From: a virus
DNA length: 54,456 nucleotides
IMG/VR virus record: IMGVR_UViG_3300027898_000010
Location: 1-54,456 of that record
Direction: 5' to 3' (one strand)
The position numbers and the translations under genes were made by a program. Below the pieces are notes generated by a model. The model worked only from the letters and a program-made list of their open reading frames with translations. It made no database searches and was not told the origin of the DNA. Below, in pieces: positions 32,799 through 54,127 of this stretch. Every line of letters begins with the position of its first letter. Position 1 is the stretch's first letter.

Positions 32799-35180
32799 AT
32801 GACGCCAACGAAAGAGCAGAGCGAAGCGCTCGAAAAATTCGCCACCGGCAAGAGCCTGCGCATCGGAGCCTTTGCGGGTTCGGGCAAGACCAGCACGATG
32901 AAGCTGCTATCCCGATCGACCTCGCGTGCCGGGGTGATGATGTGCTTCAACAAGAGCATCGCGGAGGACGCGGCCAAGAGCTTCCCTCGCAACGTTTCGT
33001 GCCAGACGACGCACGGGATGGCTTTCCGCTCCATGCGGGACGCCTACTCCACCGAGAAGCTGACGGGATCGCTGAACGGCGGATTCGTCGCCGCCAAGCT
33101 CCGCATCAACTCGCAGGACTACGGGGCTGGCATGGTGGTTCGTGGCCGCCAGCACGCCTTTCTGATCGTAGAAACCCTAAAGCGCTGGATGCGCTCCGAC
33201 CGCCCCCAGGTGATGTGGTTCGACGTTCCGCTCGACGGCAAGCTTTCCACGTTGACCGATGATCTGGCCAAGCAGGTGGCCTTCCGCATCGCCAAGGACG
33301 CCCGCGACGTTTGGGAGAAGATGATCGACCCCAGGCACGAATTGCCGCTTGGGCACGACGGATACCTGAAGGCATGGGCGATGAAGCGGCCGGAGATCCC
33401 GTGCGACTTCCTGGTGCTCGACGAGGCTCAGGATACGAATCCAGTCGTGCTCGGGATTTTAAAAAATCAGCAGGCCCAGACTGCGTGTGTCGGCGATGCG
33501 CACCAATGCCAACCGGCGGGCACGATGGTGGCCGTTGTCACGAAGAAATCGACCAGTGGAGCCAAGGCCAAGGGCGCGACTTCTGCACGTGCGGAATGGG
33601 AGAGCGTGCCGATCGAGCGGATCAAGAGAGGCGATCGCGTCGTCTCGTACAACATCAGCGGGCGGCATCTGCGGGCCGACGGCGACCTCGTCACCAGGGT
33701 GGCTAGCCGTCAATTTTCAGGCAACCTCGTCCGCGTTTTTGTTGGAGGAAAGGTCATCGACTTCACGCCAAACCACCGATGCGTCGTCAAGATCAATGGC
33801 GGCCTAAAAGGCAAGCACGTCGTCTATTTGATGCGAAAAGGAGGTTCGTTCCGGATCGGTAAATCACAGGCTGGCTACACATCCCAGCATGGGCAACTCG
33901 GATTCATGGCCCGAGCATCTAACGAGGGCGCTGAGAAAGTGTGGGTTCTCAGTATTCACGACAGTGATCGGGAGGCGCGCATCGCAGAGGCGGTCACGGC
34001 TGCAAAATTCGGACTTCCAGTTATCATGTTCAAAGACAGCATGGCAAAGTCCAGATCCGCCAATCGCAACGGCGATCAGGCATACATAGACGCCGTATTT
34101 TCCGCGTTGGGCGATCTCACGCACAATGCCATCGCTGCTCTAAATGCCCATGGCCGGCATCTCGAATACCCAATCTGGAGGAAGGGCGCGGCAAACCTGA
34201 AAAATCGCCGAGTCACCGAAATCCACGCCTGCAATCTTATGGATGGAATGAACTTCATCAGTGGCTCAGAGCGTGGGCACGGGCGCCCGGATATGGCTCC
34301 CATCAAAGTCGAGCGCATCCCGTTTAGCGGCATCGTCTACTCGATCGAGGTTGCCAACGTCAAAACCTACATCGCAAACGGCTTCGTGACGCACAACTCC
34401 ATCTATCAATGGCGCGGGGCGATGAACGCGATGAAGGAACTCCCATGCGAGCAAGAAGCGCGGCTCTCGATGTCGTTCCGCTTCGGGCAAGCCATCGCCG
34501 ACGAAGCGACCGACGTGCTGCGGCTGCTGGGCGAAACGCTGCCCTTGCGCGGCAACCCGAACATGGCAAGCATGGTCGGGCCGGTGGAGCTTCCCGACGC
34601 GGAGTTGTTCCGCACGAATGGCCGCTTGATCGAGGCCCTGATCGACTACATCCAAACCGGCTTGCGGCCGATGGTAGTGGGCGGAGTGAATGATATCCTC
34701 GCCATGGTCGACGGCAGCGAGAAGCTGATGCGCGGCCAGCCGGTAGAGTACCCGCTCGAACTGTTCGGGTTCTCCCACTGGGGTGAGGTTCAGGAGGCCA
34801 GCGAGCGCGAAGACGGCCAGGAACTGCGCCGCTGGGTCCGGCTGATCGACCAGCATGGCGTCGATGGGCTGCGTAAGGCCCTGACGGGGCTCCCGACAAG
34901 CGAAGCCAACGCCAACGTGATCATGAGCACCGGGCACAAATCCAAGGGCCGCGAGTGGGGCAAGGTCCGGCTCGAAGACGATTTCCTGCGCAACGTGACC
35001 ATCGACGGAGAGGCATCGCGAGCAAACTTCGCCGCCGGAAAATTCGATGAAGAACTACGGCTGTTCTATGTCGCGATGACGCGAGCCGAAATGCAAGTCG
35101 AGATCCCGGAAAGCTTAACCGAGAAGGTCGCCGGGCTGAGCGGGATCATGAGGGAGCCAGGATTTAGGAGGGCAGCATAA
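32799..35180 (+). CDS. UvrD/Rep-type helicase with in-frame intein
   Basis: Without the intein the protein has about 496 residues. Motif I GAFAGSGKTSTM (23-34), motif II VLDEAQD (206-212), motif III split by the intein (GDAHQ / SIYQWRGA), motif V-like STGHKSKGREWG and motif VI LFYVAMTRAE are all present. These enzymes unwind DNA 3' to 5' in replication or repair. The intein occupies residues 237-533 and must splice out to restore motif III. First gene of a plus-strand island; stop overlaps the HNH start (TAATG). Confidence 0.9.
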   Translation: MTPTKEQSEALEKFATGKSLRIGAFAGSGKTSTMKLLSRSTSRAGVMMCFNKSIAEDAAKSFPRNVSCQTTHGMAFRSMRDAYSTEKLTGSLNGGFVAAKLRINSQDYGAGMVVRGRQHAFLIVETLKRWMRSDRPQVMWFDVPLDGKLSTLTDDLAKQVAFRIAKDARDVWEKMIDPRHELPLGHDGYLKAWAMKRPEIPCDFLVLDEAQDTNPVVLGILKNQQAQTACVGDAHQCQPAGTMVAVVTKKSTSGAKAKGATSARAEWESVPIERIKRGDRVVSYNISGRHLRADGDLVTRVASRQFSGNLVRVFVGGKVIDFTPNHRCVVKINGGLKGKHVVYLMRKGGSFRIGKSQAGYTSQHGQLGFMARASNEGAEKVWVLSIHDSDREARIAEAVTAAKFGLPVIMFKDSMAKSRSANRNGDQAYIDAVFSALGDLTHNAIAALNAHGRHLEYPIWRKGAANLKNRRVTEIHACNLMDGMNFISGSERGHGRPDMAPIKVERIPFSGIVYSIEVANVKTYIANGFVTHNSIYQWRGAMNAMKELPCEQEARLSMSFRFGQAIADEATDVLRLLGETLPLRGNPNMASMVGPVELPDAELFRTNGRLIEALIDYIQTGLRPMVVGGVNDILAMVDGSEKLMRGQPVEYPLELFGFSHWGEVQEASEREDGQELRRWVRLIDQHGVDGLRKALTGLPTSEANANVIMSTGHKSKGREWGKVRLEDDFLRNVTIDGEASRANFAAGKFDEELRLFYVAMTRAEMQVEIPESLTEKVAGLSGIMREPGFRRAA
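33507..34397 (+). mobile_element. Intein A in helicase motif III, 297 aa
   Basis: Starts with Cys (CQPAGTMV) after GDAHQ, has block-B-like TPNHRC, block F VYSIEVANVKTYIANG and ends VTHN, followed by extein Ser (SIYQWRG). All self-splicing residues are present (C1, block-B His, penultimate His, terminal Asn, +1 Ser). No LAGLIDADG motif. The centre has HVVYLMRKGGSFRIG and WVLSIHDSDREARIAEAV, shared with the intein at 47045. Confidence 0.92.
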
Positions 35181-41189: not shown

Positions 41190-41435
41190 CTAGTTAGTGT
41201 CGGGGTCGACAAGCTCGCGCCGCTGGTTGCCGACGACGACAACGGCACCGCGCCGGGTGAGACGCGCCAGGCAGCCGTAAGCGCTAGCCTCGTTCTTCCA
41301 GCCCATGTGCAGCGCAATGGCCTTGTTAGACGGGAACCCGCGACCGGCGTCGATCTCGGCGCGAACGAAGTCGAGTACGCGCTGCTGCTGGGGCGGGAGC
41401 AGACCCGATGGACGGCGCAGAAGGGGCAAGCTCAC
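41190..41435 (-). CDS. LexA-type winged HTH protein, 81 aa
   Basis: Residues about 15-75 follow the LexA DNA-binding domain order: QQQRVLDFVRAEIDAGRGFP, SNKAIALHMGWKNEASAYGC, LARLTRRGAVVVVG. There is no S24 domain, so it is a stand-alone repressor-like protein. ATG overlaps the stop of the methyltransferase gene. Confidence 0.8.
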   Translation of the reverse strand: MSLPLLRRPSGLLPPQQQRVLDFVRAEIDAGRGFPSNKAIALHMGWKNEASAYGCLARLTRRGAVVVVGNQRRELVDPDTN

Positions 41436-43264
41436 GGTGCGCTCTCCATCATTTCGATCCGGCGCCCGATCCAGCGCATGACGTTGACAGCCATCGAGTT
41501 ACCGAGCGCTTTGTAGCGTGGGCCATCGGCGGCGGGCTTGCCGCGGTAGGGAACCGCAGAATATCCTCGCGGGAAGCCCTGCAAAAACTCGCACTCTTCG
41601 ACCGTCAATCTTCTGACCTGCCAACTGGTGAGTGTTGATTTACCTTCACTGCTTGCGGGTCGCCGTACTTTTTGAACCGCTGATAGTGCTTGTCGCAGTA
41701 GCCTAACCCCTTCTGCGGCTTCCCACAGATCGTGCATGAGCCTTTCGGCTTGTGCTCCTCGTTGTGACAACTCCGACAAATACGCTCCAAGTTCTCGGGC
41801 GAGTTGTTGAGATGGTTGCCATTCTTGTGGTGGACATCTCTCGCCAAAGGATTCCCGCAGCGATTGCACGGCCCCTGCGGAACGATCTTCCTCGCGTGAT
41901 AATGCGCAGTAGACCACCCAACGTCTGGAGAATGCCGCTGGTCGAAGTTCGCTGCCATGCAGCGCTGATCGCAGAATTTCCGGCGATTGAAGTGTATCAA
42001 GTATTCCAAGTCCCCATTGGGCAAACGCTTCCTCTCCAAGCGCGCTGCGCACTCCACGCAATAGCGCTCCGGAGTCGGTTTGCGATGGGCAGGCATGGCA
42101 TTCTCCCGAAAACTCTAACAACGTAATAGCAGCCGGATCGCTGCCCGTATTCAGGCAATCCGTGACGTCGCCGGTCTCGTAGCAGCCGTCATTCCCCGTA
42201 GTGCGGTAGGCCAGCGTCGGCGCGCGGCCGTGGGCTGGGATCGGATGACACGGATCTCCCTGCGCCGGGTTGCTGCGATTGGCGGCGCTGGTGATCTGGG
42301 TCTCGTCGAAGACAACCGGCAACAGTCGGCCCGCAAACGCATCTTGTGTCGTGCCGCCCTTGTTTCCTGCCGTGTCGAGTGTGCCAGCCACGGCCACGAA
42401 CGTCTCGCTCTCGAAGTCAAAACGCCCCGAGCCGCCGTGCGCGGTCTGCGCGTTCGCTACGTCGATCGGACCGGCTTGGTTGTTACCGCCGAATGCGAGC
42501 AAGCTGTCGCACGTATCAGCGTCGGTGCCATATGGTCTATCACCGCCTGTAGAGTTTCCGCCCGCCCGCAGGCACGGCGCAACATCGCTCGCGATCAATC
42601 CTCCGTCGCAGTCGAAGTCGGTTCCAAGTCCGCCACCGCCCTTAGTGCGCGCGCTAAGAGTGGGGGCAGGGTTTTGCCCCGCTTGGCGGCGCGGCGGAGA
42701 ATTCCCGAGCAGGCTCTCGCGCTCAAATAGTACCGCTGCGGCACGTCGCCAGTCTCCAGCACATCCGACAACGAACACACGCCGTCGTCGTTGAGGGACA
42801 GCCCGGCCAAACCCGTCCACTCGGACAAACTGAGCGTCCAGCACTCGGTAGGCGAGACCATACCCGCATTCTGCCAGCCCTCCGAGGATGGAGGCGAAAG
42901 CCCCTCCCCGGTCCATGCTGAGCACACCGGGGACGTTCTCCCAGATGACCCAGCGGGGGCGCAGGCGGCGAGCCAGGAGGCAAAATTCGAGCGCCAGGTT
43001 ACCACGCTCGTCATCCAATCCGCCTCTGAGACCGGCGATGCTGAACGACTGGCACGGGGTGCCTCCGACGAGAACATCGATAGCTGCATAGTCGTTGGCC
43101 CCAATCGTTGTAAAATCGCCGTGCAGCGGTACGTGCGGATAGTGGTGCTTCAGGACCGCGCGCGGAAACGCCTCGATCTCGCTGAAAAACGCCGGACGCC
43201 AACCGAGCGGATGCCAGGCGACGGACGCAGCCTCGATGCCGGAGCAGACGGAGCCGTAGATCAA
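41432..43264 (-). CDS. dcm-like: C5-cytosine DNA methyltransferase carrying a nested HNH gene
   Basis: Motif I GSVCSGIEA, catalytic GGTPCQS (C71), ENV (109-111), QRRRRVFVVG, then RRLTVEECEFLQGFP and ALGNSMAV at the end: all C5-MTase motifs in order. At 610 residues it is long. Residues about 390-553 coincide with a second open frame coding for an HNH endonuclease (41605-42096), ending where motif IX begins. That insertion keeps this frame open. Whether the enzyme tolerates the extra segment is unknown. Confidence 0.85.
   Translation of the reverse strand: MIYGSVCSGIEAASVAWHPLGWRPAFFSEIEAFPRAVLKHHYPHVPLHGDFTTIGANDYAAIDVLVGGTPCQSFSIAGLRGGLDDERGNLALEFCLLARRLRPRWVIWENVPGVLSMDRGGAFASILGGLAECGYGLAYRVLDAQFVRVDGFGRAVPQRRRRVFVVGCAGDWRRAAAVLFERESLLGNSPPRRQAGQNPAPTLSARTKGGGGLGTDFDCDGGLIASDVAPCLRAGGNSTGGDRPYGTDADTCDSLLAFGGNNQAGPIDVANAQTAHGGSGRFDFESETFVAVAGTLDTAGNKGGTTQDAFAGRLLPVVFDETQITSAANRSNPAQGDPCHPIPAHGRAPTLAYRTTGNDGCYETGDVTDCLNTGSDPAAITLLEFSGECHACPSQTDSGALLRGVRSALGEEAFAQWGLGILDTLQSPEILRSALHGSELRPAAFSRRWVVYCALSREEDRSAGAVQSLRESFGERCPPQEWQPSQQLARELGAYLSELSQRGAQAERLMHDLWEAAEGVRLLRQALSAVQKVRRPASSEGKSTLTSWQVRRLTVEECEFLQGFPRGYSAVPYRGKPAADGPRYKALGNSMAVNVMRWIGRRIEMMESAP
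41605..42096 (-). CDS. HNH endonuclease nested in methyltransferase gene, 163 aa
   Basis: Same strand, different frame from the methyltransferase. GGGAGA lies ahead of ATG. The frame has CVEC, a second CDQRC, CNRCGNPLARDVHHKNGNHL, NNSPENLERICRSCHNEEHK and CTICGKPQKG, i.e. an HNH core flanked by zinc pairs. This is a homing-type gene embedded in its target gene. Confidence 0.85.
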   Translation of the reverse strand: MPAHRKPTPERYCVECAARLERKRLPNGDLEYLIHFNRRKFCDQRCMAANFDQRHSPDVGWSTAHYHARKIVPQGPCNRCGNPLARDVHHKNGNHLNNSPENLERICRSCHNEEHKPKGSCTICGKPQKGLGYCDKHYQRFKKYGDPQAVKVNQHSPVGRSED

Positions 43265-46197: not shown

Positions 46198-46538
46198 GAT
46201 ACGATCTCCGGGGCTGGGCCTGCGAGGCGCTTGATGCGAGCAAGGTTGCGCTTGGCCTGCTTTACGAGGTCGAGCGCGACGTTGAAGCGGTGCTCGGCCT
46301 GCTGCAGGGCCTTTCTGCTGGTCGCAACCCGCTTGTTGATCCGAACTCTGCCGTCGGGCAGATCTTCCATGAGCGGGATACTCCGCACATCGGCGTAGGC
46401 AGCCTTGGCGCTTTCGAGAAGCACCTGGGACTGAGCGCGGTACGCTTCGGCCGTCTTCACGTCGGCAGCAGCGTCGGCCAGCGGGTTAGGCTCAGACGGC
46501 GTGTGTGAGGCTGTGGTGGGCGTGTGGAGCGTGTTCAT
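46194..46538 (-). CDS. Hypothetical helical protein, 114 aa
   Basis: ATG 46538 overlaps the TGA of the ParB-methyltransferase and follows AGAAGG. Long helical region (AEAYRAQSQVLLESAKAAYA and ALQQAEHRFNVALDLVKQAK), likely coiled coil. No family recognised. Confidence 0.65.
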   Translation of the reverse strand: MNTLHTPTTASHTPSEPNPLADAAADVKTAEAYRAQSQVLLESAKAAYADVRSIPLMEDLPDGRVRINKRVATSRKALQQAEHRFNVALDLVKQAKRNLARIKRLAGPAPEIVS

Positions 46539-48778
46539 GCGGCCTTCTCTTTGCGTTTGGGCTTCGCCTTCGGCTTCGGCTCGGGCTTTGCGTCTGGTGC
46601 CCAGCCGCGCTCGGCCACAACGTCGGCATAGGGAACCCGGGTGCCGTCGGGCTTTTCGAGGAACACCTTGTCGTAACCACCAACGAAGGTAGCCCACCGG
46701 TTGAGGGCAACGTCGACGTATGGGGGGTGGAGTTCGACGGCGTAGGCGATGCGGCCGGAAAGTTCGCAGGCCATGATGGTGGTGCCCGAGCCGCTGAACG
46801 GCTCATAGATCGCTTGGCCGGCGGTGGAGTTGTTCTCGATCGGGCGCTGCATGCAGGCGATGGGCTTCTGCGTCGAGTGGCCCGTCTCGGACTTGCGATG
46901 CTCGATGTGCCAGGTGGTCGATTGCTTACGGCCACCATGGTACTGACCCGGGTTACCGTCTTTCACGGCATAGGCGAGATCGTCGTGCTCGACATCGAAG
47001 CGGTCGGTCCATTGGTCCTTGGGGGACTTCGAGGCGAACGCGCAATTGTGAGTGACGATGCCGTCAGCAACGTAGTGCTCGTCTTTATCGACGTCGATTG
47101 AGTAGACCTCACCAACAAAAGGCTCGAACTCAACGCACTCAATGGTGCGCCATTCGAAGTTGTCTCCATCGGTCGGAACTGGAACCTGCATGATGCCAGG
47201 GACCAAATTACAAGCGGCTACACGCTTTGATTGTGAGCGGCTTGACCTCTCTCCATCTGCGCAGATAAGAGGGCGATGTTGGCTGAGGCCGAAATCGCTG
47301 AATAGGCGAGAGACGCCATCAGCAAGGCGATGGTGCCCGATCTTCAAATAGATTGCGGCGACATGATCCTTGTTGCGATGCACGTCGACCTTGTCTGGCT
47401 GACGCGCGGACGCTTCCCAGCAAGTTGTCGGGATGCCGTACACACAGCTGGCGACCTGTTCGGCAACCTGAGCCGACTGCGCGTCATCATGGGCCGACAA
47501 CACCCAGGCCGCGTCCGCTCCTTCTTGGCGACGGCGAACAGCAAGCCCAAATCCCAGAGAGTTGAACAACCGGCAGCGCCCCACTCGCCAACGCTCTCCA
47601 GAGCGCATCAGGTACACAACGTGCATGTCTGCCGCGTCGGGGGAGAAGCGAACCGTGAATGAATGCTCTGCGGTTGCGCGCGTGAGTAGATCGCCGACGC
47701 GGATAGAATGCATGTTCCCGTCATAGTCGCGCCTCACCGCCTTAGTCACGGCCCGGCCGCGCTTGCGAACAACGCTCTCGTAAGCGTTATAGCTAACGAC
47801 ATGATCGCCATCTTTGAGGGTTTCAATTGGGACCAATTCTATGTCTGCGAACGTCCCCTGACGCCCAACCTCAGTCGCGTGAGCTTCTACAACTTTTTGC
47901 ACCAAAGTTCCCGCCGGCTGGCACGGCTCATGCTGCCAATGGTAGTCGCCGCGGCTGATCGCCAGGCGGGGATTCACCCAAATGATCTGGCTCCGGATCT
48001 TGAATTTGCAGGCCTTCAGCGACTGGTAGACGACGTCGGCCATCACGCCAGCGTGCCACACGTAGGCGACGGAGCCGGGGAACAGCGCCCACGCCTCGCG
48101 CCAATCGGCCTGGTCGTCGTTCAACACCTTGCCCTTGGCCGTGTCGGCGCCGTTGGCGAGCCCAGCGCCATCGCGCCACGAAGCGTCGTACTCCACGCCA
48201 TAGGGTGGATCCGTGACCATAAGGTGCGGCTTAACCTTACCCAGCAACCGACCGACGACGTGGGCCTCGATCGAGGAACCGCAGATGATGCGGTGATCAC
48301 CAAGGTGCCATAGGTCGCCGGGCTCGGAGAGCGGGTGCTCGGGCGGTTCCGGAGTGGCCTCGGCGCGCTCCAGGTCGTCTTCCGTTAGGAGGAGCTTATT
48401 CAGTTCGTCCAGATCGAAGCCGGTCATGGCCAGATCGAAGTCGAGCGCCTGTAGCGCCTCCAGTTCGGACGCGAGCACGTCATCGAGCCACTCCGATTCC
48501 TGAGCGACCCGATTATCCGCGAGCCGATACGCTTTCACCTGCGCGGGTGTCAGGTCGTCGCCAACGGTGACCGGCACTCGCTTCAGCCCAAGCTGCTGCG
48601 CGGCCTTGAGACGCGTGTGCCCCGCGATGATCACGCCATCCGCGTCAACCACAATTGCGACGCGGAACCCTAACTCTCTGATGGAAGCCGCAACCTTGTC
48701 GACGGCCTTTGCGCTGATGGCGCGCGGGTTACGATCGTATGGCTTAACCCGCTCGATGTCCCAAAGAGCAACCTTCAT
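46535..48778 (-). CDS. ParB-domain DNA methyltransferase with in-frame intein
   Basis: 747 residues, about 454 after splicing. Residues 1-105 form a ParB/sulfiredoxin-type N-terminal domain (ASIRELGFRVAIVVDADGVI and GHTRLKAAQQLG). Residues 190-198 DPPYGVEYD are the catalytic motif of an N4-cytosine or N6-adenine methyltransferase, with EPFSGSGTTI near the end as the SAM motif. The C-terminus is a Lys/Pro-rich tail. The intein sits at HEP / CAF. ATG overlaps the stop of the HNH-AP2 gene. Confidence 0.9.
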   Translation of the reverse strand: MKVALWDIERVKPYDRNPRAISAKAVDKVAASIRELGFRVAIVVDADGVIIAGHTRLKAAQQLGLKRVPVTVGDDLTPAQVKAYRLADNRVAQESEWLDDVLASELEALQALDFDLAMTGFDLDELNKLLLTEDDLERAEATPEPPEHPLSEPGDLWHLGDHRIICGSSIEAHVVGRLLGKVKPHLMVTDPPYGVEYDASWRDGAGLANGADTAKGKVLNDDQADWREAWALFPGSVAYVWHAGVMADVVYQSLKACKFKIRSQIIWVNPRLAISRGDYHWQHEPCQPAGTLVQKVVEAHATEVGRQGTFADIELVPIETLKDGDHVVSYNAYESVVRKRGRAVTKAVRRDYDGNMHSIRVGDLLTRATAEHSFTVRFSPDAADMHVVYLMRSGERWRVGRCRLFNSLGFGLAVRRRQEGADAAWVLSAHDDAQSAQVAEQVASCVYGIPTTCWEASARQPDKVDVHRNKDHVAAIYLKIGHHRLADGVSRLFSDFGLSQHRPLICADGERSSRSQSKRVAACNLVPGIMQVPVPTDGDNFEWRTIECVEFEPFVGEVYSIDVDKDEHYVADGIVTHNCAFASKSPKDQWTDRFDVEHDDLAYAVKDGNPGQYHGGRKQSTTWHIEHRKSETGHSTQKPIACMQRPIENNSTAGQAIYEPFSGSGTTIMACELSGRIAYAVELHPPYVDVALNRWATFVGGYDKVFLEKPDGTRVPYADVVAERGWAPDAKPEPKPKAKPKRKEKAA
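47045..47923 (-). mobile_element. Intein B in ParB-methyltransferase, 293 aa
   Basis: Starts CQPAGTLV after WQHEP, has TAEHSF (block B), VYSIDVDKDEHYVADG (block F) and ends VTHN before extein Cys (CAFASK). Centre HVVYLMRSGERWRVG and WVLSAHDDAQSAQVAEQV parallels the helicase intein. No LAGLIDADG. Both inteins thus belong to one family placed in two unrelated hosts. Confidence 0.92.
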
Positions 48779-49260
48779 TTATGCCTCGCGAATTCGCCGT
48801 GGTATCTCTCCGCGGCCACCGCGCGAGCAGCGGCTGCCTCATCTATGGTGTCGAATCGACCCAGCGCGATTTTCTTGTTGTTCACGCTGATCATGGCGCA
48901 CCATTTCTGCCTCTCCTCTGACCAGCACACACCTTTGACGCCGGACTTGTTGCGACGCGGAGCTGGGGTGTTCCACCCGTTCTCCGCCTTCGTCGCGAGC
49001 CGTAGGTTGCATATCCGATTGTCATCCTTCACGCAGTTGACATGGTCAACATTGGTGCTCGGCCACTCCCCATAGTGGATCGCCCATGCCAAGCGATGGG
49101 CAGCCACCGTTTTGTAGCGGCCGGAAATTATGAACCCTATGATCTGGTATCCGCGATGCCGGGCGCCAATGATCGGCGTGCTAGATCGCCATACGCCGGT
49201 CTGAGGGTCGTAGCCGATGCAATCGCGCAAAGCAGAGATAGACCACACATCTATCTTCAT
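48775..49260 (-). CDS. HNH-AP2 homing endonuclease-like protein, 161 aa
   Basis: ATG 49260 after GAGGAACCG; an upstream extension is rejected. HNH core: HRLAWAIHYGEWPSTNVDHV, then NCVKDDNRICNLRLATKAEN. The C-terminus carries AP2 (SGVKGVCWSEERQKWCAMIS, LGRFDTIDEAAAARAVAA). Free-standing homing gene upstream of the ParB-methyltransferase, its stop overlapping that start. Confidence 0.9.
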   Translation of the reverse strand: MKIDVWSISALRDCIGYDPQTGVWRSSTPIIGARHRGYQIIGFIISGRYKTVAAHRLAWAIHYGEWPSTNVDHVNCVKDDNRICNLRLATKAENGWNTPAPRRNKSGVKGVCWSEERQKWCAMISVNNKKIALGRFDTIDEAAAARAVAAERYHGEFARHK

Positions 49261-49267
49261 CGGTTCC

Positions 49268-49693
49268 TCACATGAGAGCAGGTGGCCACCCAGCGCTATC
49301 GATCTGCGCCGTGGTGGTGATGGTTGGGGGGACGGCATTGATGCCGGAGAGAACGATTTGCAGCACCGGGCGCGCAAGTGCCGTGTCGGCGCCGGCCGCG
49401 ATCAGGGCACCGTACTTGTTCTTGAGGTAGGTTGTGAGTTGCTCCTTGAGCGGCACGGGGGGCGGCTGCGTCAGGGCCATGGCCTCGGCTGCCGTGATCT
49501 TGGGCAGCGACGCATGGGGCAGGTCGAGACCGCGGTTTATGGCGTTGGCCTGGTCCTGCGCCGAGAGGAAATACACGGTGCCCTTGGCGTCCTTCGTATA
49601 CATATCGGCAAAGGACGAGGCGAGCGCCAGCGGCGCGGGTGGCGGGGTTACAGGTGCAGGGGTAGGGGGAGTAGCGGGCGTTGATATCGTCAT
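49268..49693 (-). CDS. Hypothetical fibre-region protein, 141 aa
   Basis: Pro/Ala/Thr-rich N-terminus (TISTPATPPTPAPVTPPPAP) and a helical C-terminal half (LKEQLTTYLKNKYGALIAAG). Lies downstream of the fibre trio, so a fibre assembly or structural role is possible. No family recognised. Confidence 0.6.
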   Translation of the reverse strand: MTISTPATPPTPAPVTPPPAPLALASSFADMYTKDAKGTVYFLSAQDQANAINRGLDLPHASLPKITAAEAMALTQPPPVPLKEQLTTYLKNKYGALIAAGADTALARPVLQIVLSGINAVPPTITTTAQIDSAGWPPALM

Positions 49694-52700: not shown

Positions 52701-53279
52701 CTACGGCAGAACCTCTCCATCGGTGACGCGACCGCACCGGTCACGGCGCGCGAGAAGAGAGGCGCCAAGCTTCATCAGCGCCGACTTCGCCGGATGGTTG
52801 GCGCAAGCTAGTGCGGCATAGGTCTCGTCCAGAGACTGAGCCGACAGGCGAAGCGCACCGATCTCATGGTCATTGGGCAAGCGGCGGTGCTTGCGGCAGA
52901 AGCTGTGCAGCCCGAGCACCCAGCCCTCGTTGGCAGCTTGCGATCCGAGAGGACACCGGATCAGCGTGTCGGCCAGCGCGATGGCCTCCTTGGACCACTC
53001 GACGGCCGGGTCGGGCTTTCTGGCGGTCGCCGCCGCACCCTTCAGGCGGGCGGCCTCGGAACGCTGAGCCAGCACGTTCAGGCACGCAGTGCGGCACTCC
53101 GACGGGAGCGGGAACCGGTGATACTTGCCGGTGCGCACAAGGAGCGACATCGCGTCCTCCCAGATCGAGGCGTCGTGCTCGAACTCCTCGATCGCACCCG
53201 CGCACTCGGCGTAGTACGCAACCTCGTCTTCCGACTTGGGCTTGCCGAACGCGATGGTTAAACGGTTAAACTTCAGCAT
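52701..53279 (-). CDS. Hypothetical replication-region protein, 192 aa
   Basis: Overlaps the end of the DUF1376-type gene by 7 bases. Mixed helical, with GKYHRFPLPSECRTACLNVL and LGLHSFCRKHRRLPNDHEIG. Proteins of this kind follow replication-initiator genes in phages and may act as helicase loader-like partners; that is inference. Confidence 0.65.
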   Translation of the reverse strand: MLKFNRLTIAFGKPKSEDEVAYYAECAGAIEEFEHDASIWEDAMSLLVRTGKYHRFPLPSECRTACLNVLAQRSEAARLKGAAATARKPDPAVEWSKEAIALADTLIRCPLGSQAANEGWVLGLHSFCRKHRRLPNDHEIGALRLSAQSLDETYAALACANHPAKSALMKLGASLLARRDRCGRVTDGEVLP

Positions 53280-54127
53280 GAGGCCCCCGCTGATCCGTTC
53301 TGGCGAGCGACCGACTCAGCACGCAGGCGGGCGGAGTGGGCCTTCATTTCGGCTAGCTTCCGAGCGACGGCGTCCTCGTCGTACAAGGGAGCCCCGGCGG
53401 CCTTCGGCGCCCCCTCGGCCTTGAGGCGGCGGGCAATCGACGTCCAGGCGTTGATCGGACGGCTCACGATCATGCCGGTTGACATGTCGGTTTCGAGCTT
53501 GTGGAACGCTTCCGCGGTTGCCGCTTGCCCAAAAAGCTCGACCGTCGATCGAAGCCACTGCCGGGCGTTCAGGGTTGTCATTCCACCCCACCGCTCAACA
53601 GCAGCGATCATTCGATCCGACAGCGAGCCAGCCAGCCCTTCGCTCGGGGCTACGGATTCACTGCTGGCTGGCTGGTGATTCTTCTCTTCACTTTTCTTTC
53701 TGTCCTGTAGTGTAGTGTAGTGTGTGTCGTCGGGCTTTGATTTTTCAGGGTTTTTTGCCGCGATCTCAGAGTGCTCACTGAGTGCTCCCGGAGTGCTCTC
53801 TGACTGATCGGCGACTGGCGCCGCAGTGATCTTGCGCCGCTTTGCGAGTTCGACATCGCATCGGCGGTTGCGGAGCGTGCCGTCGGCGCCGACGTAGAGC
53901 TTCCGCATTTCGATGAGGATTCGCTTGTTGGCTCGCACCTGCCGGATGTCGGTACAGAGCGCGGAGGCGATGAGGCGGTCATCGTTGGGGAGGTTACCGT
54001 CGTACCGATAGATGAGGTTCAGCACCTCCATGTAGAGCAGGCGGACCATGGGCTTAAGGCCGCGCGTTGCGGAGAGGAGATCCTCGGCATAGCAGGCGTA
54101 CCAAGACGGGGCGGGGCGACGGCTCAT
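53273..54127 (-). CDS. DUF1376-like replication protein, 284 aa
   Basis: N-terminus PSWYACYAEDLLSATRGLKP, then VRLLYMEVLNLIYRYDGNLP matches DUF1376 (YdaU-like), a domain common in phage replication-initiation proteins. Residues about 105-160 form a polar low-complexity linker rich in Ser, Glu, Lys. The C-terminal half has LNARQWLRSTVELFGQAATA, a helical domain. The linker coding sequence contains three 8-bp direct repeats like an origin. Confidence 0.75.
   Translation of the reverse strand: MSRRPAPSWYACYAEDLLSATRGLKPMVRLLYMEVLNLIYRYDGNLPNDDRLIASALCTDIRQVRANKRILIEMRKLYVGADGTLRNRRCDVELAKRRKITAAPVADQSESTPGALSEHSEIAAKNPEKSKPDDTHYTTLQDRKKSEEKNHQPASSESVAPSEGLAGSLSDRMIAAVERWGGMTTLNARQWLRSTVELFGQAATAEAFHKLETDMSTGMIVSRPINAWTSIARRLKAEGAPKAAGAPLYDEDAVARKLAEMKAHSARLRAESVARQNGSAGASC
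53769..53798. repeat. Three GAGTGCTC repeats at 11-bp spacing (iteron-like)
   Basis: GAGTGCTC occurs at 53769, 53780 and 53791, one helical turn apart, beside a T-rich stretch (53735-53757). They lie in the linker-coding part of the replication gene, as lambda ori lies in O. Candidate origin of replication. Confidence 0.5.

Follow-up and report, generated by a model that had tools for sequence, protein, structure and literature searches.

The DUF1376 gene and its surroundings

The sequence analysed here, called the window, is the whole 54,456-nucleotide IMG/VR virus record IMGVR_UViG_3300027898_000010. Near its right end lies a gene for a 284-aa protein that carries several short repeats (Table 1). 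The protein matched the Pfam family DUF1376 (PF07120) over residues 9-95 with 33.0 bits against a cut-off of 30.1 (E 8e-8), and a phage primosomal protein among the PHROGs (E 4.5e-10). In the Pfam scan DUF1376 was the only family found, with no match to Phage_rep_O (PF04492) or RepA_N. AlphaFold2 predicted a winged-helix fold for the N-terminal domain (residues 10-102, pLDDT >90), followed by a linker of low confidence (residues 103-167, mostly pLDDT <50) and a helical C-terminal part. Judged by this model, the linker is probably disordered. The best PDB match was the N-domain of DnaD, although this match was weak (E 0.03) and the winged helix is a generic fold; a search of the PDB by sequence found no convincing relative. 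The iterons and the pentamers described below both fall within the linker, and the Pfam match and the AlphaFold2 model agree with the original prediction, which had placed the repeats in the linker of a DUF1376-like protein.

The 192-aa ORF that overlaps the 3' end of the gene gave no hit in Pfam and PHROG searches. It occupies the position of the helicase loader P in lambda, but neither a family hit nor its single-sequence AlphaFold model (pLDDT 41, unusable) backs such a role. No DnaB-type helicase or helicase loader was found in the 54-kb window, which also encodes exonuclease, RecT-like and NinB-like genes. A strand-skew plot had been proposed as a check on the origin. GC skew climbs across the whole window and the contig stops about 330 bp before the start of the DUF1376 gene, which left this check uninformative. 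A second IMG/VR contig of 33.7 kb, with 100% identity across the 7.2 kb that were compared, stops at the same base (54456). The shared right end is either a true genome end or the result of one dataset having been assembled twice.

Table 1. Features at the right end of the window
Feature	Position	Strand	Details
284-aa DUF1376 protein, proposed replication initiator	53273..54127	(-)	PF07120, PHROG, AlphaFold2
192-aa ORF, overlaps the DUF1376 gene at its 3' end	52701..53279	(-)	position of lambda P (helicase loader)
Three exact iterons	53769..53798	(-)	gene strand GAGCACTC, 11-bp pitch, codons 110-120
Degenerate iterons continuing the 11-bp register	53802..53831	(-)	copies at 53802 (6/8), 53813 (4/8) and 53824 (6/8)
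AT-rich stretch adjoining the iteron array, candidate unwinding region	53676..53755		60% AT
Pentamer array	53706..53727	(-)	TRF; gene strand (CACTA)n, codons 134-141
11-bp perfect inverted repeat with 26-nt loop, past the AT-rich stretch	53626..53673		weak; synonymous shuffles 2.7%

Two repeat arrays in the linker

Three exact copies of GAGTGCTC were found on the plus strand at 53769-53776, 53780-53787 and 53791-53798, at a pitch of exactly 11, confirming the iterons and the spacing of the original prediction. They had also been described as flanking a T-rich tract, but the array lies to one side of it. Degenerate copies continue in the same register, and a double-iteron pattern is matched by 53791-53809 with 2 mismatches. 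The triple is the only run of at least 7 bases that occurs three times at a constant pitch of 9-30 in the window. It is not a product of chance: order-2 Markov sequences yielded 0.025 such triples of at least 7 bases per window, and 0/40 had one of 8 bases, and synonymous-codon shuffles of the 284-aa gene produced an 8-base triple in 1/4000. Elsewhere in the window GAGTGCTC with at most 1 mismatch occurs at chance level (54 seen against 57 expected). All three copies share the same 8-bp core, but their 3-bp spacers vary (ACT, CCG, TCT); selection on the core accounts for this better than a recent duplication would.

The AT-rich stretch beside the iterons has 60% AT, compared with a mean of 37.7% for the window, and only 0.13% of 80-bp windows rank as high; the enrichment extends wider than the T-rich tract. 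Within it lies the pentamer array, whose self-match at offset 5 was reached by 0/2000 synonymous shuffles. The GTAGT repeat noted earlier at 53706-53722 is present and beyond shuffle chance, but its extent had to be revised to 53706-53727 by TRF. We propose that this (CACTA)n array is the short-pitch second element of an origin. Since the pitches of 11 and 5 are not multiples of 3, the copies fall in different reading frames, and neither array gives rise to a repeat in the protein. The GAGTGCTC array is read in three frames and is thus a feature of the DNA.

Repeats recur in DUF1376 genes

The GAGTGCTC triple was found in no other viral contig except the one identical contig, so selection had to be argued from relatives. 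Bacterial genomes searched with the window protein gave no close relatives, and a profile search from six distant proteins had no conserved stretch to build on. DUF1376 genes were compared for repeat pitch. They were drawn from phages, from alphaproteobacterial and other genomes and from IMG/VR, and formed sets of 89 nonredundant and 61 coarse-nonredundant genes, with 228 neighbouring ORFs as controls. Each gene was tested against its own synonymous-codon shuffles with a per-offset threshold of p<=0.01.

A best self-match at p<=0.01 was seen in 36% of the 89 DUF1376 genes and in 4.8% of the 228 controls; as the controls exceed the nominal 1%, it is the comparison with them and not the raw p that carries the evidence. 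Among the coarse set, offset 11 was significant in 14/61 genes against 10/228 controls (Fisher 3e-5), offset 11 or 22 in 19/61 against 16/228 (3e-6), and offset 6 or 7 in 27/61 against 8/228 (2e-14). Offset 10 showed no excess (0/61). Offset 12 was raised as well (11/61 against 4/228), but we did not lean on it because the signal comes partly from simple repeats that also repeat in the protein. Clusters of ACC[AC] alone were rejected as a signal, being mostly due to protein sequence (p<0.05 in 18% of coarse genes against 1.8% of controls). As a positive control, lambda O gave offset 20 at codons 117-130, inside its annotated iterons.

In the strongest cases the repeats are visible by eye, such as CCGTTGAACGA in L217, CCAACGGCGTT in L218 and ATGCGAACGCA in L215, and in L056 an 11-mer of the CCAACATCTCG type recurs about a dozen times. 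Most offset-11 segments end 65-200 nt past the DUF1376 domain. The order of the elements is fixed: wherever a gene has both arrays (14/14), the 5-7-bp one is 3' of the 11-bp one. By this test the 11/22 signal is significant in only about one quarter to one third of the diverse family members, and we propose 11-bp-pitch linker repeats, which the DUF1376 gene of the window itself carries, as a recurrent but not universal feature of DUF1376 genes. In a gammaproteobacterial set assembled later, the offset-11 rate of 80% is inflated by relatedness and by a query that reached into the linker, and offset 10 was raised too (22%). In the DUF1376 linker of a large phage group (L062, L098, L100 and similar IMG/VR loci), AAGGTTA repeats of about 12-bp pitch precede (TTCATC)n, apparently a variant of the same design.

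Synonymous sites over the repeats are conserved in two lineages

Codon identity between pairs of genes with the same residue was determined along the alignments. In 10 genes from Rhizobiaceae it reached 0.87 across the iterons and 0.93-0.96 across the ACCAGTACCAGAACCA block (ACCA repeats) 3' of them, whereas most of the DUF1376 domain stood at about 0.5 and the C-terminal end at about 0.3. The gammaproteobacterial group (43 genes) reached 0.88-0.91 across the iterons and 0.98-1.0 across AAGAG-type repeats, with most of the domain at about 0.4-0.6, and the amino-acid identity of its linker was far below that of the domain. In both lineages the protein sequence is variable where these repeats lie. 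This set of gammaproteobacterial genes had been fetched with the linker-including query, but its synonymous-codon values do not stem from that selection. Such repeats are under selection at the DNA level in these relatives. A second raised synonymous block (0.81-0.88) was observed in the gammaproteobacterial phage loci L346-L425 at alignment columns 57-68 in the DUF1376 domain, possibly an extra iteron or an operator.

Genes next to DUF1376 in relatives

Downstream of the DUF1376 gene a P-like helicase loader was found in 7/74 cases and a DnaC-like loader in 4/74, and primase was also found; upstream, DnaB was present in 4/57. Several Rhizobiales members adjoin terminase genes instead.

Comparison with known intragenic origins

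Origins inside genes are already known, and for Salmonella phage L one with 11-bp repeats has been predicted. In lambda the iterons lie in the middle of the O gene, with an AT-rich side and the helicase-loader gene downstream (PMC7466680). The window resembles lambda in having iterons inside the proposed initiator gene, adjoining an AT-rich stretch and at about the same codons (117-144 in lambda); lambda O (PF04492) also has an N-terminal DNA-binding domain, the role proposed for the winged helix of the window protein. However, O belongs to a Pfam family other than DUF1376, the lambda origin has four 18-bp iterons at a 20-24-bp pitch instead of 11, and O has no significant 5- or 6-bp array.

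Repeats inside initiator genes are known from lambda, P22 and phage L, those of phage L being 11 bp (PMC8022706). The putative origin in gene 18 of phage L (MW013502, 31649-31725; PMC8022706), a prediction in one phage, consists of 11-bp repeats TGTCCAACGGA at codons 133-158 that are followed, as in the window, by an AT-rich stretch; a DnaB-type helicase gene is next in phage L. In contrast to the window protein, gp18 has no DUF1376 match in Pfam, and its repeat sequence is different. The Rep protein of pSK41 (RepA_N) has a winged-helix N-domain with a DnaD-like fold, and its origin boxes lie inside rep, where they encode a dispensable linker ahead of a separate C-domain (PMC5703833). Unlike the window protein, RepA_N proteins are from staphylococcal plasmids and form a different family, and the C-domain binds DnaG primase.

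Within the DUF1376 family, ydaU of the Rac prophage (E. coli K-12) has linker repeats at offsets 33 and 23, with a sequence unlike that of the window, and is followed by ydaV, which encodes a putative ATP-binding protein. An origin of Rac, oriJ, is active (PMC3945230), and its identity with the ydaU array is a prediction. Within the searchable literature, which takes in little of what is published by subscription, a family-wide origin of two parts in DUF1376 genes seems not to have been described; the papers there that mention DUF1376 name it once each, and no title among them concerns an origin.

A probable replication origin within the DUF1376 gene

Taken together, we consider it quite probable that the GAGTGCTC repeats are the iterons of an intragenic phage replication origin, with origin activity and binding by the winged-helix domain of the DUF1376 protein as its predictions. 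The lambda-O-like origin first suggested for this locus has gained support from the predicted fold, the linker repeats, their recurrence in the family, the conservation of synonymous sites and the replication genes adjoining relatives. We infer that the DUF1376 protein binds the repeats, that the AT-rich side unwinds, that helicase is recruited and that this is the main origin. The N-terminal domain, encoded by the 5' part of the gene, would bind side by side on the 11-bp-spaced iterons; with one helical turn per site all iterons would be on one face of the DNA. The nucleoprotein complex may then strain the adjacent AT-rich stretch with its (CACTA)n repeats until it opens, and the C-terminal part of the protein could help to recruit the host replicative helicase via a loader. 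The origin most likely works like that of lambda, or like the RepA_N system of pSK41; from lambda it differs in protein family and repeat design.

Iteron-binding initiators often autoregulate as well, and the array could instead be a set of operator or partition sites for the DUF1376 protein or another phage protein, with replication starting elsewhere. Such autoregulation, the ParB-domain protein encoded by the window (46535-48778) and the gammaproteobacterial block at columns 57-68, which could be an operator, are in keeping with this. Nevertheless, we regard it as improbable: the array is deep within the gene and not at a promoter, it is paired in fixed order with an AT-rich or short-pitch element, the genes adjoining it in relatives are replication genes, and the rest of the window shows no enrichment of GAGTGCTC.

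Two further explanations, each of which we rate as very improbable, leave the repeats without a role as DNA sites. A probably disordered, poorly constrained linker might tolerate functionless repeats from neutral tandem duplication by slippage, and the trinucleotide-like (TTCATC)n of some family members could arise in this way. A single duplication of 11 bp or 5 bp would shift the reading frame, however, and slippage does not account for identical cores with differing spacers, for the strong conservation of synonymous sites that two lineages show across the arrays, or for control ORFs without the signal. The conserved codons could also reflect selection on RNA or codon usage, such as mRNA structure or translation pausing, as synonymous conservation alone cannot tell selection on DNA from selection on RNA. 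An RNA function gives no reason to prefer an 11-bp pitch, though, and the sharp spacing at 11 and 22 bp with none at 10 fits proteins on the DNA helix. The enrichment of short inverted repeats in linkers (215 observed against 159 expected, as compared to 625 against 702 in controls) was also counted against it.

The intragenic origin would give a concrete job to a widespread phage family still labelled as of unknown function, and sequence alone would predict the replication start in many phages and prophages, including Rac of E. coli. It also suggests a recurring two-part origin written across a coding linker, with a pitch set by the DNA helix and not by codons. More tentatively, this may be a general design of DUF1376 genes, though we think it rather doubtful: iterons of 11/12 bp would bind the protein as double-stranded DNA, and an array of 5-7-bp pitch (ACCAGA, CACTA, AAGAG and TTCATC types), always 3' of them, would serve sequence-specific unwinding or single-strand binding as a phage counterpart of the DnaA-trio, with the mapped oriJ of Rac being the array in ydaU.

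Possible inteins and other inserts in the window

Other genes of the window may carry inserts. The ParB-domain protein is a DNA methyltransferase (46535-48778, minus strand) with an intein-like insert, matching Intein_splicing at residues 316-578 below the curated cut-off, and an HNH and AP2-domain endonuclease ORF (48775-49377, minus strand) adjoins it. A UvrD-like helicase of 793 aa (32799-35180, plus strand) has a long internal gap relative to shorter family members and a weak intein match at residues 503-533, and possibly contains a second intein. A 610-aa ORF for a C-5 cytosine methyltransferase (41432-43264, minus strand) has split family matches, which suggests an insert between residues ~200 and ~540.
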